Shown: positions 3,127 through 35,376 of the stretch, piece by piece
Numbering within the stretch: the stretch's first letter is position 1
How the letters are laid out: every line of letters begins with the position of its first letter
Origin: a virus
Virus record (IMG/VR): IMGVR_UViG_3300023184_000008
Span: 1-35,376 of that record
Reading direction: 5' to 3' (one strand)
Length of the DNA: 35,376 nucleotides
Program-made: the position numbers and the translations under genes
Notes under the pieces: generated by a model
Seen by the model: only the letters and a program-made list of their open reading frames with translations
Database searches by the model: none
Told to the model about the DNA's origin: nothing

Positions 3127-4212
3127 TTATAACTCCGCAGATAATGTCATGGAAGTTGAGCCGTTTTGGTAAACAACAGCAGCTCTTCCAATAGTAGTAA
3201 AACCACTTCCAACAACAAAATCAAATTCAATTTGTGATGCAAAAAGATATGAACTTCCTATGCTACTAACAGTAGATGTCAAAGAACCATCATAAACTGG
3301 CAAAGCACCCACTACAGCAGTAGGAGCTGTTCTCATTACAACAGGTAAAACCATACCCATTCTATTTAAAGCAGTTGTACCAACAACAACACCCCTTAAT
3401 GGTGGCTGTGTATAAGTTTGAAAATACCTCTGACAATTAGCCAATTCCTGATTATAAAGTCTGCGTTCAAACGGTGTTGCTGATGTGTTTTGTTCTAGTT
3501 GGACACCTGTGATGTAGAAGGTAGCTCCGTTAGTGCCTACGACTGATGTTGCTCCTGTGGCTGATACATAGTTTGCTCCAGCCCAAGCACTAGCAGTTCC
3601 ACTATATGTTGAGCCAACACCAAGACCGAAGAACAAAACAAGTCCTGCACCATTGGTTGTGTTCCATGTGCCGCTTGTATCACCAGCAATCGTAATTGTC
3701 TTTTGTTCCCATGTGTTTGCCGTGCTAATGGTGTATGTAAATGGATAACTTCTATTTGCAGATGCGTTTTGAGCGCAACCTCCAAATGTTCCAGTTAAAG
3801 AACTACGCACCCAAAATGACAAAGTAACAGTAGCAGCTCCTGCTGCACCCCAACCAAGGTCAGCTACATTAAAACCTTCGATGTTGTGTTGTTGTGCAAA
3901 GTAATCACCAGTTAAAACTGAGTAAGCAGAAGACGAAGTGATGCCAAGGTATTTTGTAAAGCCAGTAGGGGGTGTAACAGCTCCAGCACTTTGTTGCACT
4001 GTGTATTTGCTTGATTGACTAAGGCGAGATTGCCAACGGTCAATTGTGTATTGAGTTTCTGTCGGAGTAACACTAGCCCCAGCATTTCTCTGGTCAATCC
4101 TCATGTCACCATTTATAATACGGTTCTTTAGCACATAAGGTGAAGCAGCAGCTCCTTGTAGAGAGGTGTCGTTAAAGGTGACTCCGTTTGTCCCATCCAG
4201 CACAAGAGACAT
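3127..4212 (-). CDS. Tail fibre / receptor-binding candidate, paralogue of 4928-6043
   Basis: A 361-aa beta-rich protein with few charges. It shares the order of motifs with the 371-aa protein at 4928-6043: NRIINGDMRIDQRNAG near residue 30, a TxxxSFWVRSS beta-sandwich region, [35 protein letters not shown], then [13 protein letters not shown], and both end in LSAEL. The central part looks like a carbohydrate-binding jelly roll. The N-termini differ (MSLVLDGTNGVTFNDTSLQG), suggesting different attachment points to the virion. It is followed by a small partner gene. An AAGGAG site precedes the start at 4212. The likely role is host surface recognition, inferred from family type. Confidence 0.75.
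   Translation of the reverse strand: MSLVLDGTNGVTFNDTSLQGAAASPYVLKNRIINGDMRIDQRNAGASVTPTETQYTIDRWQSRLSQSSKYTVQQSAGAVTPPTGFTKYLGITSSSAYSVLTGDYFAQQHNIEGFNVADLGWGAAGAATVTLSFWVRSSLTGTFGGCAQNASANRSYPFTYTISTANTWEQKTITIAGDTSGTWNTTNGAGLVLFFGLGVGSTYSGTASAWAGANYVSATGATSVVGTNGATFYITGVQLEQNTSATPFERRLYNQELANCQRYFQTYTQPPLRGVVVGTTALNRMGMVLPVVMRTAPTAVVGALPVYDGSLTSTVSSIGSSYLFASQIEFDFVVGSGFTTIGRAAVVYQNGSTSMTLSAEL
3423..3460. repeat. 38-bp direct repeat shared by the two fibre paralogues (copy 1)
   Basis: These 38 bases are identical to 5179-5216. They encode the [11 protein letters not shown] segment of both fibre paralogues. Perfect DNA identity in otherwise diverged genes suggests recent duplication, gene conversion or a recombination hot spot. 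Confidence 0.9.
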
Positions 4213-4927: not shown

Positions 4928-6043
4928 TTATAACTCCGCACTTAAAGTTAAAGCTGTGCCTACACCAGCTATATAAAAATATGTACTGCCAGAACCAAAG
5001 GCACAATTATCTATAGATGGATAAATGCCAGGCGTTGTATTAACCCACCCATAAGGAGCAGCCACTGTTGGGATTGCTCTTTTAGTTTGTTTATAAAATA
5101 CATTTAACCAATTGTTTGCCCCAATTAAAACTCCAGATAAAATTGCTGTTCCATTAGAATTTCCGTTAAAAACTTCATAATACCTCTGACAATTAGCCAA
5201 TTCCTGATTATAAAGTTTATATTCAAATGATGTAGCAGAAGAACCTACTTCTAATTGGACACCTGTGACATACCAATAATTACTTGTGCTTCCCATTATA
5301 GATGTAGCACCTGTTGTTGATAAAAAAGGTCCAGTAGCCCAAGTATTTGCAGCTCCACTATAAGTAGTTCCTGTTCCTAAACTAAAATAAACATCTATAC
5401 CAAGAGTATTTCCTGTTGCCCAAGTTCCTGTAGTATCGCCAGCAATAGTTATTGTTTTTTGTTCCCAAGTATTAGCTACTAAAATAGTATAACTAAAAGG
5501 ATAGTTTCTAGCACCTGTATTTTGTATGTTTCCACCAAATGTTCCTGTAGTATTAGAATATACCCAAAAAGATAATGTTACTGTTTTAGCTGATGCAGTT
5601 CCCCAAGCTAAATCAGCTATATTATAACCTTCAATTCTTTGTTCTAATACAAAATAATCACCTGCACCAACAGTTGCAGTAGCGGCTACTTTAATTCCTA
5701 AATAATTAGTAAATCCTGCTGGCGGTGTAACTGAACCATAATTTTGTTGAACAGTTAATTTAGATACTTGTGAAAATTCTGTAACCCATCTATCTAAATT
5801 ATAAGTATTAGACGCACTTGGTGTTGTAGCAGCACCAGTATTTCTCTGGTCAATCACCATAGCTCCGTTGATAATACGGTTCTTCATTGTGTATGGAGAT
5901 AATACCGCACCACCTACGCTAAAGCCAGATGATGATATTGTAGCTTGAGTTACACCAGCAGCTTGTAAATTAAGAATTCCTGTGCCGTCAGCCGTTTGGA
6001 CTATGGCTGCTGGACTTGTACTTGCGTTTATGGTTGATGCCAT
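4928..6043 (-). CDS. Tail fibre / receptor-binding candidate, paralogue of 3127-4212
   Basis: A 371-aa protein of low charge and high T, S, G and A content. It begins [20 protein letters not shown], a virion-attachment leader, followed by a short triple-beta-type shaft ([20 protein letters not shown]). The shared fibre core then starts at [16 protein letters not shown] and runs through [50 protein letters not shown] and [13 protein letters not shown]; it ends LSAEL. The final 80 residues differ most from the paralogue, as expected for a receptor-binding tip. It lies ten bases after the large fibre gene. A host-recognition role is inferred. Confidence 0.75.
5179..5216. repeat. 38-bp direct repeat shared by the two fibre paralogues (copy 2)
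   Basis: This copy is identical to 3423-3460 and lies in the equivalent codons of the 371-aa fibre gene. Bases just outside on both sides differ, so the match ends sharply. Confidence 0.9.
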
Positions 6044-13456: not shown

Positions 13457-13618
13457 TTATTTACTCATTAGGGCTTGCGCTAGTTTATGGGGATCTTTTT
13501 TTACGCCTTCAGATGCTAGTTTTTTAGCTGTAGCTTGTGACATGCCTACTTTTTTAGCAATAGCAGGATTATGTTCTGCGGCTCTAAATAATCCATTCTG
13601 GGCCTTTGTATATGGCAT
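13457..13618 (-). CDS. Conserved small phage protein (PYTKAQ..LFRAAEHNPAIAKK)
   Basis: A 53-aa helical basic protein starting MPYTKAQNGLFRAAEHNPAI and ending PHKLAQALMSK. Short proteins of this type recur in phage genomes just before the packaging genes. I chose the ATG at 13618 because the frame upstream lies wholly inside the zinc-ribbon gene; the two genes overlap by 35 bases. The 'LAQALMSK' end matches 'MAKALMRK' of the neighbouring 58-aa protein, hinting at a shared binding site. The function is unknown. Confidence 0.6.
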   Translation of the reverse strand: MPYTKAQNGLFRAAEHNPAIAKKVGMSQATAKKLASEGVKKDPHKLAQALMSK

Positions 13619-13757
13619 CTTTCGGTTCTTTCTGAAGTAATTTGGGTATATCTGTAGACTTTTTGGTTGTATCACCATCTCTAATACATTCAGGGCAAGT
13701 TGGATAGCCGGTATAGTCATAGACATCACCGCAATCCTGGCATACTGTAATTTTCAC
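13584..13757 (-). CDS. Small zinc-ribbon protein, first gene of the late transcript
   Basis: A 57-aa protein with two CxxC knuckles: VCQDCGDV near residue 5 and TCPECIRDG near residue 20. The start is GTG at 13757, with CAGGAA seven bases upstream; an in-frame ATG at 13793 lies inside the terminator hairpin and is rejected. It is the first gene after the late-leader terminator. The remainder (KSTDIPKLLQKEPKDAIYKG) is short and charged. It may bind nucleic acid or a protein partner; no more can be said. Confidence 0.6.
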   Translation of the reverse strand: MKITVCQDCGDVYDYTGYPTCPECIRDGDTTKKSTDIPKLLQKEPKDAIYKGPEWII

Positions 13758-13780: not shown

Positions 13781-13808
13781 AAAAAAAGCCCACGTTTTAA
13801 GTGAGCTT
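13781..13808 (-). terminator. Intrinsic terminator in the late leader
   Basis: On the minus strand an 8-bp stem (one G-U pair; arms 13801-13808 and 13786-13793) with a 7-nt loop is followed by a run of six to seven U. It lies about 60 nt downstream of the promoter at 13846-13874 and ahead of all late genes. In this place it would stop early transcripts unless polymerase is modified, as at lambda tR'. Confidence 0.8.
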
Positions 13809-13845
13809 ATGTGAAAGTAATAGATACAATTCTCCCACAACTGCG

Positions 13846-13874
13846 ATTATACCAAAACTGACTATGCTTGTGTA
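13846..13874 (-). promoter_or_regulatory. Extended -10 promoter for the late operon
   Basis: The minus strand reads TGGTATAAT (-10 at 13846-13851, a perfect TATAAT with an extended TGn element). A TACACA -35-like box (13869-13874) lies 17 bp upstream. Start would be near 13840. It lies in the gap after the Q-like gene, and the terminator follows within about 60 nt. The arrangement resembles lambda pR'. Confidence 0.75.
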
Positions 13875-13881
13875 TTATATT

Positions 13882-14214
13882 TTAGGCATTTATACGTCTG
13901 CCGCCAATAGTCATAAGATTATCCATAGCAAGCTCTAGCTTAAATTCATAGGCAAATGGCTTCCTAGTCTTTAAAAAGCGTGTGTAGATAGCTTCCTGTT
14001 GTTCCTTAGGCAATGAATGAATAATACTGTCAATAGTATGTACGTTCTTTAAGTCTTGCGCACTTACCATCTCCAAAAAGGCGTCTGCTGTTGATTCGCC
14101 ACCTGATATAAAACCTGTGCTTTTTTTTGGAAAGCCTAACTTATGGCTATCATGTGACTTCATGTACAAAGCCCAGTCCTCGCATATACATAATAAACGA
14201 TCCATACTAAGCAT
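13882..14214 (-). CDS. Putative Q-like late antiterminator / sigma-region-4-like regulator
   Basis: A 110-aa protein, last gene of the minus-strand early operon. The ATG at 14214 (AAGGTGG six bases upstream, overlapping the previous stop as TAATG) is preferred to an in-frame GTG at 14223. The C-terminal half, DSIIHSLPKEQQEAIYTRFL, followed by RKPFAYEFKLELAMDNLMTI, has the pattern of a sigma-70 region-4-like helix-turn-helix, as in several phage Q-type antiterminators and late activators. The position supports this: directly downstream are a strong promoter and a terminator, then the whole late operon. Family membership is from memory of the pattern, not a search; a plain HTH activator is the alternative. 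Confidence 0.6.
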   Translation of the reverse strand: MLSMDRLLCICEDWALYMKSHDSHKLGFPKKSTGFISGGESTADAFLEMVSAQDLKNVHTIDSIIHSLPKEQQEAIYTRFLKTRKPFAYEFKLELAMDNLMTIGGRRINA

Positions 14215-14366
14215 TAATTCCACCTTGTTCTAAAATGCCACCATTTTTTGCGTAGCTTTTCTATTTCAGCATAAATTCTTTTATTCTTGTCAGAGTTTCT
14301 TCTTTTACATCCATGAGCATCCATCATAAAATGCCCATTTAAACTTTTAAGCTTATAAACAATCAC
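14214..14366 (-). CDS. Small basic protein, GTG start
   Basis: A 50-aa very basic protein: VYKLKSLNGHFMMDAHGCKR and IEKLRKKWWHFRTRWN. The GTG at 14366 overlaps the stop of the upstream gene (GTGA), with GAGGA about 12 bases before it. The stop overlaps the next ATG (TAATG). The coupling at both ends argues that it is translated. It may bind nucleic acid, given its charge, but no family is recognised. Confidence 0.5.
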   Translation of the reverse strand: MIVYKLKSLNGHFMMDAHGCKRRNSDKNKRIYAEIEKLRKKWWHFRTRWN

Positions 14367-15395: not shown

Positions 15396-15506
15396 TTACT
15401 CCTCATTACAAGAATTAACAATATAAATGCAAGCTGCTTCAAAAGCCACAAATACTATTGCAAAAGGTAAAAATAATATACCTATAAATCCAACTAAATA
15501 TTTCAT
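15396..15506 (-). CDS. 36-aa membrane miniprotein
   Basis: A 36-aa peptide, MKYLVGFIGILFLPFAIVFV then AFEAACIYIVNSCNEE, with one long hydrophobic helix (about residues 3-29). The ATG overlaps the stop of the DUF1364-like gene (ATGA), and its end carries the ribosome site for the next gene. It should sit in the inner membrane. The function is unknown; it could act in host takeover or exclusion. Confidence 0.55.
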   Translation of the reverse strand: MKYLVGFIGILFLPFAIVFVAFEAACIYIVNSCNEE

Positions 15507-15793
15507 TTTATTCCCAAATGGTTGTTAGTAAATAACCAACCTATAGTTTTTCTGTGCGCTTCTTCCCATGCTGCTATTCTATCATGTTTATCTAATGATT
15601 TGTCATTATCTATTATGTGGTGGCATTGATGACATAAAAATGCTATACGGTGGTCATGGGCTTTTATGCCTGTACCTTTACCATCTCTTAACTGATTGCT
15701 ATGTGCGGCCACTACAGTACCGTCTTGCATAGAACACATCATACATGGTGCGCCATTAGCTATTTTTAAAAGTTTAGGGTTTCTATAGTTCAC
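15503..15793 (-). CDS. DUF1364/NinG-type zinc-HNH nuclease-like protein
   Basis: A 96-aa protein read from a GTG at 15793, which overlaps the NinB stop (GTGA) and has GGAG nine bases upstream. An ATG at 15826 also exists but would overlap NinB by 37 bases, and family proteins begin close to 'PKLLKIANGAPC'. Metal ligands are visible: C17 and C20 (PCMMC), H31 (AAHSN), and the cluster C54-H-x-C57-H58-H59. This layout is that of the DUF1364 (YbcO-like) family, thought to be HNH-type recombination nucleases in nin regions. Its neighbour NinB fits that setting. The activity is inferred. Confidence 0.75.
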   Translation of the reverse strand: MNYRNPKLLKIANGAPCMMCSMQDGTVVAAHSNQLRDGKGTGIKAHDHRIAFLCHQCHHIIDNDKSLDKHDRIAAWEEAHRKTIGWLFTNNHLGIK

Positions 15794-16146
15794 AGATCCC
15801 AACTCCAGCCCATAGTATTTGCCCACAATTCTATTTGTTGTTGATAATCTGTCATTTCTGCTGTTGTAAGTTTAGTAGTAGATTTTATAAGTTCTACCGG
15901 AAAGCCAGCTATTTCTGACTGTGATCTAAGCAGACGCCAAGACATGAGTTCGTGAACCTGTTGTTTATCTAAACCTAAATGATTACCTACGCTAGTATAA
16001 AGTTCCCATAACCTTTCGTTTTGCTCTAAGCTACGATTTGCTTTTGCTTCTACTATTGTCACACGCCATGATTTAGTCCAATCAAGTAATCTTAATTTGA
16101 TAATAAGATTTTCTAGGTTGTTTTTTGTTAAGCTCCATTTCAGCAT
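15790..16146 (-). CDS. ninB: NinB/Orf-family recombination protein
   Basis: A 118-aa protein with the diagnostic stretch NRSLEQNERLWELYTSVGNH at about residues 37-56, followed by VHELMSWRLLRSQSEIAGFP. Lambda Orf (NinB) helps load recombination proteins on single-stranded DNA bound by SSB. The second ATG (16146) is chosen because AAAGGA lies eight bases upstream; the ATG at 16152 is too close. The first 65 bases overlap the 63-aa upstream gene in another frame. With the exonuclease, annealing protein and SSB-like protein on the other strand, it completes a recombination set. Confidence 0.8.
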   Translation of the reverse strand: MLKWSLTKNNLENLIIKLRLLDWTKSWRVTIVEAKANRSLEQNERLWELYTSVGNHLGLDKQQVHELMSWRLLRSQSEIAGFPVELIKSTTKLTTAEMTDYQQQIELWANTMGWSWDL

Positions 16147-16273
16147 TGTCATATCCTTTGCTTTTATAAACTGTTCCGTTATGTAATGTTACTTTCCAAT
16201 TTGTTGTAGAAAATGGTTTTCCATCTTCATCTAAATCAAGATATTTAAACCAAGCTGTAGTTTCATATTTCAT
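16082..16273 (-). CDS. Hypothetical protein overlapping ninB
   Basis: A 63-aa protein, MKYETTAWFKYLDLDEDGKP at the start, with a small beta-sheet pattern (WKVTLHNGTVYKSKGYDNAE). It starts in an ATGA overlap with the helicase stop. Its last 22 codons overlap ninB in another frame, so both frames constrain that DNA. No known family. The start is secure through coupling; its biological role is open. Confidence 0.5.
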   Translation of the reverse strand: MKYETTAWFKYLDLDEDGKPFSTTNWKVTLHNGTVYKSKGYDNAEMELNKKQPRKSYYQIKIT

Positions 16274-17184
16274 GGGCTTTCCTTGTATCGTAATCCTTTA
16301 GCATCAAACCAAAAATTAAAACTACCTTCCCATTGTGCGTTTCTCTGCTTCTGTACAAACACCTTTGCATCAGGAATAATTCTAAGTTCTTCTGGTGTTG
16401 TTTTTCCTTCTTCAACAAGTTTTTCTTTTGCACGATTTCTCCAAACACAAATAATGTTATCACAAAGGTTGCGAATATGAGAACTACCCATAATATCTGT
16501 TGCATCTGGGATTTCTGTTTCATCTTTCATCTTGCGAGTGTGAGCAACTAAAAATACATGAATGTTTAAATCTCTACAAGTAACAGCTAAAGAATTAACA
16601 AAGGCTTTTTGTTTGTCTAATGATTCTTCAGTTATATCCTGAATCTTCATTAAACTATCTATTACAAATACGTCCACACCCAAAATATGTTTGCCATAAA
16701 ATAATGTAGCTATCATATCTTGTGATGTTGTAGTTCCTGTTTGATCGTATATGTATAATTTGTCTGCAGCTCTACTACAAAACTTTCGTATGTAATCATC
16801 TGTTGGTTCTTGTGAACCTAGTGCCTGCGAAATAAGCCTACTCAAACTTAATACTGGGCGCATTTCAAGGCTTGAAAGCAAACATTTGCCACCTTGTTTC
16901 ATTATAGATAACATGACTTGAGATAACCACATTGACTTGCCATGGCCAGAAGGCCCAGTAATTATCGTAAGTTCCGCCATCCGAACACGAAATTTATCTT
17001 CCGTCTTAATCCAGCCCAACGATTTACCAGAATGAATTTCCTCACCGAAATACTTGATGACATCATCAGTAAATATATCTGTACTTTTAACTTTAAACTC
17101 TGCTTGAGAATATCCTTCATTGTAGAACTCCTTAACAGTTGATTGGTTTACTGTGAGCTTATCAATAACTTCGCCAAGGTTCAT
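16270..17184 (-). CDS. DnaB-like replicative helicase (RecA-fold ATPase)
   Basis: A 304-aa protein that corresponds to the C-terminal motor of DnaB helicases, without a full N-terminal primase-binding domain. Walker A is GPSGHGKS at residues 77-84, the catalytic glutamate lies in SLEM near 107, Walker B is VFVIDS near 172-177, the sensor is VAHTRK near 213, and KQRN near 279 resembles the arginine-finger region. It would unwind the phage fork 5'-3' as a hexamer. The ATG at 17184 overlaps the initiator stop (ATGA); an upstream ATG at 17199 is less likely. No primase motif is present, so host DnaG is probably used. Confidence 0.85.
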   Translation of the reverse strand: MNLGEVIDKLTVNQSTVKEFYNEGYSQAEFKVKSTDIFTDDVIKYFGEEIHSGKSLGWIKTEDKFRVRMAELTIITGPSGHGKSMWLSQVMLSIMKQGGKCLLSSLEMRPVLSLSRLISQALGSQEPTDDYIRKFCSRAADKLYIYDQTGTTTSQDMIATLFYGKHILGVDVFVIDSLMKIQDITEESLDKQKAFVNSLAVTCRDLNIHVFLVAHTRKMKDETEIPDATDIMGSSHIRNLCDNIICVWRNRAKEKLVEEGKTTPEELRIIPDAKVFVQKQRNAQWEGSFNFWFDAKGLRYKESP

Positions 17185-17801
17185 ACTCCACCTTCCCAAA
17201 CTTTTTTCATAGGCTTGCTATCTTCCACAGGATCATTCCATCTCGATTGATTAATGTAAGTTGTAGTGGCCGGCACATAACCTTCTTTCCATGACTTAGT
17301 TTCCTTCATTTTTTGAATATGGTCAAGTATTTCATCTTTGATCTCATATAATTTTCTATTACGCCATTTTTCTTCACATTTAGTTTTAGATATTTTACGA
17401 GCTGGATATGACTCCCAAAATTCTGTAAAAGAACTTCTGGCCAACACATATATATCTTTATCTTTATCTATATCTCTATCTCTATCTAGTATAGACTTTG
17501 TATAGTCACATTCTATTATCCACTTACTCAATGATTTTATTACAGAATTTATAAATTCTATAGGGTATCTTAACCGGTAAGCAATTGCCTGATCTTCAGG
17601 TAAATAACCATCATATTGACTAGCTAAACACCATAATTTGATTAAAATAGCTTGTTGATCGTGAGTCATTGCATTAAATTCAAAATCCTCTAATAAGTCA
17701 ATTCCGTATAGTTTAAACCAGGGCATTTTCTTAGTTTCATCTGCATAAGTCTTTGGCTTATAGTGCTGGAATTTATCCCAATTCTTAACTTTGTATTTCA
17801 T
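17181..17801 (-). CDS. Replication initiator / helicase loader (O/DnaT-like)
   Basis: A 206-aa protein with an AAGGAG site before the ATG at 17801. The N-terminal half (WFKLYGIDLLEDFEFNAMTH, IKLWCLASQYDGYLPEDQA) has the winged-helix pattern of phage replication initiators. A repetitive acidic linker follows (ILDRDRDIDKDKDIY). The C-terminal segment, FTEFWESYPARKISKTKCEE and YVPATTTYINQSRWND, is the module shared by many phage initiators and helicase loaders. It directly precedes the helicase gene, the O-P order. It probably recognises the origin and recruits the helicase. The origin itself is not identified. Confidence 0.8.
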   Translation of the reverse strand: MKYKVKNWDKFQHYKPKTYADETKKMPWFKLYGIDLLEDFEFNAMTHDQQAILIKLWCLASQYDGYLPEDQAIAYRLRYPIEFINSVIKSLSKWIIECDYTKSILDRDRDIDKDKDIYVLARSSFTEFWESYPARKISKTKCEEKWRNRKLYEIKDEILDHIQKMKETKSWKEGYVPATTTYINQSRWNDPVEDSKPMKKVWEGGV

Positions 17802-21473: not shown

Positions 21474-21495
21474 AAAGGGCTGTTTAAGCCCTTTT
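21474..21495 (+). terminator. Terminator of the early plus-strand operon
   Basis: A perfect 8-bp stem (AAAGGGCT / AGCCCTTT) with a 5-nt loop is followed by TTCTTGT. It lies between the convergent early and late operons. On the minus strand the U-run is short, so it works best for the plus strand. Confidence 0.75.
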
Positions 21496-35173: not shown

Positions 35174-35376
35174 TTAAGCTGTTAGAACGCCGTTAAATTG
35201 TGCGCCTGAAGCAGTAAGATTACCAGCCCAGCCGATTAATTTAACAATAGCGTCTTGATTTACAGATTGACGTTCACCACCGATTGGCACAAAGTTTCTG
35301 TCTTTGTGTGGGCGGAAGAAAATGTAGTCTGTGTTTAAGAAATACATGTGGTTAGCTGGTTCTTGCGCACCAATAC
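35174..35376 (-). CDS. Major capsid protein, C-terminal end (joins 1-920)
   Basis: This segment holds the last 25 codons of the capsid gene plus its 127-base repeat of the left end. On the circle the reading frame passes from position 1 to 35249 without change: ...NQDAIVKLIGWAGNLTASGA then QFNGVLTA and a TAA stop. The gene totals 996 bases including the stop. No disruption is present. Confidence 0.9.
   Translation of the reverse strand, partial: IGAQEPANHMYFLNTDYIFFRPHKDRNFVPIGGERQSVNQDAIVKLIGWAGNLTASGAQFNGVLTA
35250..35376. repeat. Terminal overlap of circular contig, right copy
   Basis: This copy is identical to bases 1-127. In a linear reading these 127 bases should be removed to give the unique 35,249-bp genome. 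Confidence 0.97.

Follow-up and report, generated by a model that had tools for sequence, protein, structure and literature searches.

The window, that is, the whole 35,376-nucleotide stretch of viral DNA that was analysed, is a single circularised genome (~35.2 kb) of a small freshwater phage that we read as lytic; an identical 127-bp direct repeat at its ends (1–127 and 35250–35376) fits a circular assembly. Plus- and minus-strand early operons diverge near 18.0–18.3 kb, and a YqaJ recombinase is encoded in the plus operon. The minus-strand operon encodes, in order, a replication initiation-like protein (17181–17801; phrog_9474 and phrog_270), a DnaB-like replicative helicase (16270–17199; PF03796, E = 4e-12; phrog_19), a NinB-like protein (15790–16152; PF05772, E = 1.8e-4, slightly under the cut-off), a YbcO-like nuclease (15503–15826; PF07102, E = 3e-6, slightly under the cut-off) and, last, a 110-aa Q-like regulator (13882–14214; ATG at 14214, stop at 13882, with an alternative GTG start at 14223); this is the lambdoid order. 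Behind the regulator gene, on the same strand, lie a predicted promoter, a terminator and then ~27 kb of late genes. These cross the circular junction and extend as far as about 21.5 kb; there, a terminator-like hairpin (21474–21494) closes the convergent plus and late operons. The first gene past the leader terminator is an ORF with a GTG start for a small CxxC zinc-ribbon protein (13584–13757, minus strand). In the late operon, one gene, probably the major capsid gene, crosses the junction, two adjoining genes (3127–4212 and 4928–6043) look paralogous (common motifs, e.g., DRW), and the terminase has its nearest counterparts in Rhodoferax, Methylophilales and Pelagibacter phages.

The preliminary description had placed a small regulator gene at the end of the minus early operon, ahead of late genes that cover more than 27 kb on one strand, in a phage with no visible lysogeny genes. 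All of this holds: the 110-aa ORF ends the operon behind the YbcO-like gene, the late genes share one strand via the circular junction (backed by the terminal repeat), and a Pfam scan of 20 window proteins reveals no lysogeny genes.

The Q-like protein

The regulator is identified as Q-like by its relatives, their weak family matches and its predicted fold. HMM searches, which the preliminary description had proposed as a check on its 'sigma-region-4-like/Q-like' label, gave no Pfam match for the window's protein; 10 of 39 relatives weakly match PF06530 (Phage_antitermQ; best 3.3e-4, 21.0 bits), with alignments that are collinear over residues 4–82, and 21 of the 39 weakly match Sigma70_r4_2 (best 9.7e-4), which covers the first half of the PF06530-matching domain. 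The remote similarity to both families stands for the relatives, with every Pfam family match under its curated cut-off. The lambda-Q family is absent from the Pfam matches of these 39 relatives. In an NCBIfam search many sigma factors match (E 0.005 to 0.1); alignment with hhalign against nine Q proteins was weak (17% probability, from a shallow protein alignment), and a sequence search of the PDB returned chance-like hits only. Two AlphaFold models (pLDDT of 82 and 80) consist entirely of helices, apart from a loop predicted with low confidence at about residues 23–39, beside a conserved GGEST motif; when they were compared with the PDB using Foldseek, chains of sigma region 4 (3hug, 3vep, 2h27) were among the most probable matches, but with E values >1, and 21Q itself was not among the listed matches.

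Two relatives were already named as antiterminators in GenBank before this analysis: a protein of MW202481 is called 'phage antitermination protein Q' (57% identical to the window protein, and likewise preceded by NinB), and Venkman gp37 is called 'antitermination-like protein' (55% identical). The best explanation is that the 110-aa protein represents a short, unrecognised Q-like family that resembles 21Q more than lambda Q; because no member tested reaches the curated PF06530 cut-off of 26 bits, we file it as a Q-like family and not as a member of PF06530.

The promoter, leader and terminator and their conservation

A −35-like box, TACACA (13869–13874, minus strand), lies within a conserved ACACAAGYA element (mean conservation 0.97 in 15 non-redundant copies) and is separated by 17 nt, the TGG counted within the spacer, from TATAAT, which starts 30 nt past the stop codon of the Q-like gene; TGG-TATAAT (13846–13854) is an extended −10 and the proposed late promoter. 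The match to consensus is 10/12 plus TG (4/6 in the class A −35; classes are defined below); few sites in the window reach 10/12, and none of the others combines an exact TATAAT with TG. From the −10 spacing, transcription is predicted to start near 13839. A tR'-like intrinsic terminator spans from about 31 to about 59 nt downstream of this start: its 8-bp stem is formed by AAGCTCAC and GTGGGCTT, separated by 7 nt (13808–13786), and its run of 7 T reaches 13781. The window has one case of an extended −10 promoter followed within 90 nt by a terminator; 300 dinucleotide shuffles produced none. The box, the 17-bp spacing (TACACA-17-TATAAT, 13874–13846) and a terminator with a U-run some 60 nt on had all been noticed earlier and are confirmed, as is the lack of another strong late promoter, since no comparable one was found ahead of the late genes. 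The late genes are predicted to be headed by a sigma-70 promoter with an intrinsic terminator in its leader.

An alignment scan of IMG/VR gave 325 relatives of the Q-like protein, and two further scans added more; a pattern-based search of bacterial genomes found none. The gene–promoter–terminator order recurs in >100 IMG/VR contigs that fall into five sequence classes (A to E, our own grouping of the downstream DNA, with the window in class A); in all five, the Q-like gene is followed by a promoter, a short leader, an intrinsic terminator and a late gene, the last being the zinc-ribbon gene in classes A–D. The class A module is present as a single copy in each of 39 contigs. Its core, from TATAAT (invariant) to CTAT, is 91–100% identical between copies; the synonymous third positions of the adjacent gene are 45–86% identical, mostly near 55%. 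A terminator lies downstream in 39/39 contigs, 22–24 nt away in most and farther in two (L255 and L284), and the Q-like gene lies upstream wherever the contig extends that far. Classes B to E have a good −35 (TTGACA or TTGAACA) and good −10s.

Several rearranged loci separate the parts of this arrangement. The module can be 86–788 nt from the Q-like gene, in some loci with an inserted gene that occupies about 600–790 nt; the module remains intact, so it is not simply the 3' end of the Q-like gene. In L006, L012, L017, L021, L023, L089, L094, L100, L108 and L117, the intervening gene starts with LLHGDCLELM and, read by eye from the DNA, apparently encodes a DNA methyltransferase. In L026, >100 nt are inserted ahead of an unchanged terminator, and in L038 a different terminator stands in place of the usual one; the promoter-plus-leader and the terminator are therefore separable units, both of which are kept. 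A search with the GGEST motif passed over three loci: L288 is truncated, L032 has GGAST in its place, and the L283 protein is only 49% identical to that of the window. In L283 and L290, an unchanged class A module lies under a 49%-identical Q-like protein (GGASSS for GGEST), as if the allele had been swapped.

Venkman (L044) has no module behind its Q-like gene. At about 351–170 on its minus strand there is a candidate late promoter, TGATGATATAAT, of the extended −10 type (near 351), which is followed by terminator-like hairpins. This candidate precedes the late operon; the Q-like gene is far away, on the opposite strand. One relative matches this region at 88%, in a segment that we read as lacking the same promoter.

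Conserved in class A are ACACAAGYA, TTTTGRTATAATCG (nearly so) and TGTGGGANAATTGTATCTAT; the middle of the spacer is the least conserved part (0.59), and two 6-bp direct repeats of the type bound by 21Q are not conserved in the −35/−10 spacer. The initial transcribed element, TGTGGGAGAATTGTATCTAT (13820–13839, minus strand), is near-invariant (mean conservation 0.98), has a single copy in the window and is a candidate sigma-dependent pause site. It includes a −10-like GAGAAT (GATAAT in relatives), which is possibly a sigma pause hexamer; hexamers resembling a pause element, as read by eye, are GAGAAT or GATAAT in class A, GATAAT in B, CATACT in C and GATAGT in most of E, and they end 17–18 nt past the −10. 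In class D, such a hexamer is not evident by eye.

The start of the leader can also pair as RNA: a 5'-proximal leader hairpin of 7 bp, UGUGGGA...UUUCACA (13810–13839, minus strand; z about −2.4), is predicted, and in class A its 7/7 pairs hold in 13/13 distinct sequence variants. Three of the seven pairs vary by a one-sided G-U change, and no two-sided changes occur. Stems such as GGACA/UGUCC and GGGCA/UGCCC substitute for each other in class D; when the 3' halves were re-dealt 500 times, only 2 re-dealings reached the observed stem score. Class E has UGGG/CCCA and UGGA/UCCA stems as well as broken stems and poor folding, and the hairpin is weak or absent in much of the class. We judge the leader hairpin to be probable in classes A to D and unproven in class E. 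An Rfam search found nothing over threshold (a Trp_leader hit was sub-threshold, E = 0.033). The hairpin may serve in pausing, in protection of the RNA or in being read by the protein.

A reading of late-gene control

We read the observed anatomy, conservation, gene order and remote family similarity as those of a Q-type late antitermination switch, an assignment that we consider likely. Transcripts from this promoter must get past the terminator, because the promoter stands at the head of the late operon and upstream of the terminator; with the Q-like gene in the position of Q, protein-dependent read-through is the simplest account. The Q-like protein would be made last by early minus-strand transcription. 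Host sigma-70 polymerase would initiate constitutively at the extended −10 promoter and would then pause, some 20 nt farther on, at the −10-like element of the conserved initial transcribed region. Without the regulator, transcription would stop at the leader terminator, yielding a ~59-nt RNA; with it, the protein, which is predicted to have a sigma-region-4-like fold, as 21Q does, would load onto the paused polymerase and allow read-through into about 27 kb of late genes. Because the family matches are under their cut-offs and a binding repeat of the 21Q type is lacking, this mechanism is likely but not proven. As for how the protein is recruited, one reading, which we consider rather improbable, is that the protein engages polymerase via the initial transcribed region (the DNA pause element and/or the nascent 5' hairpin), not via a DNA site in the spacer. 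If so, this would be a Q system with its loading site shifted downstream of the start.

The 110-aa protein might instead be a sigma-4-like activator that helps late initiation, the terminator trimming leftover early transcription or setting a basal level. Although the weak matches do point to sigma region 4 and the class A −35 is only a 4/6 match, the good −35 and −10 elements of classes B to E make help with initiation look unnecessary, and the terminator lies downstream of the promoter and is kept even when replaced or displaced (L038 and L026); we regard this explanation as unlikely. More improbable still is a leader that acts by itself, that is, an RNA switch or a put-like antiterminator RNA in which read-through is set by the hairpin itself or by a host factor, the upstream gene having another function. 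Such an RNA would agree with the pairing in all class A variants, with the alternative stems of class D and their rarely equalled score, and with the sub-threshold Trp_leader hit; but the hairpin is weak or absent across much of class E, the class A changes are one-sided only, no Rfam family exceeds its threshold, and in classes A–E the module is never far from the Q-like gene.

The main product might also be the terminated small RNA itself, with the late genes served by leaky read-through or by another promoter. The anatomy does predict a 59-nt terminated RNA in the absence of an antiterminator, and lambda makes a short terminated leader RNA. We consider this the least probable of these explanations, and a very improbable one: no comparable alternative promoter was found ahead of the late genes, the module keeps its position in front of the late operon, and a function as a small RNA leaves the link to the Q-like gene unexplained.

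For this group of uncultured aquatic phages, Q-type antitermination would be a circuit of late-gene control that can be put to the test, and it would extend such control to a phage without visible lysogeny genes. The five natural promoter–leader classes and their matched proteins, including the 49%-identical protein on the same module, form a comparative set for what a Q protein reads.

Comparison with known systems

The preliminary description had likened the locus to the lambda Q, pR' and tR' arrangement. This likeness stands for the layout: the order is kept in five classes, the promoter and leader are constrained, the upstream genes are lambdoid, and in lambda, too, the regulator is last in the replication/nin operon, with a promoter behind it and a leader terminator before the late genes. 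It does not extend to the protein, which is nearer to 21Q (PF06530); lambda Q is also larger (624-nt CDS), and the lambda terminator is farther downstream. The lambda leader also begins with a foldable hairpin, formed by the initial RNA from pR' (L045, 788–812). The sequence GATGGGnTAATT is common to lambda pR' and class B leaders (e.g., L092) at nearly the same place; we do not count it as evidence.

DLP12 QuuD, of PF06530, resembles the present system as a small Q protein with YbcO in the same operon and in the weak collinear matches over residues 4–82; it differs in that no member here attains the family's 26-bit cut-off. Another small regulator, AlpA of Pseudomonas aeruginosa, loads at a promoter and enables polymerase to run past a terminator farther downstream (PMC7969949, PMC9371919); we liken it by description and not by sequence, and, unlike the phage protein, it is a bacterial cell-death regulator. 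The proteins of MW202481 and Venkman are homologous and are antiterminators by annotation only, in records that describe no promoter, leader or terminator.

In phage 21, as here, the Q gene is followed by a strong promoter, with start and terminator within about 60 nt. 21Q is sigma-region-4-like, and 21Q-type proteins and lambda Q have no overall fold in common (PMC6606751); the likeness of the present protein to 21Q is by prediction and by remote PF06530 similarity, and it has 110 aa as against 162. The 21Q site consists of two TGAGCA repeats in the spacer, whereas here such repeats are not conserved, and conservation is among the highest in the initial transcribed region. What is new here is a spacer without a 21Q-like repeat together with a near-invariant initial transcribed region that is predicted to form a 5'-proximal RNA hairpin, whose pairing is preserved by G-U changes and some compensatory ones.
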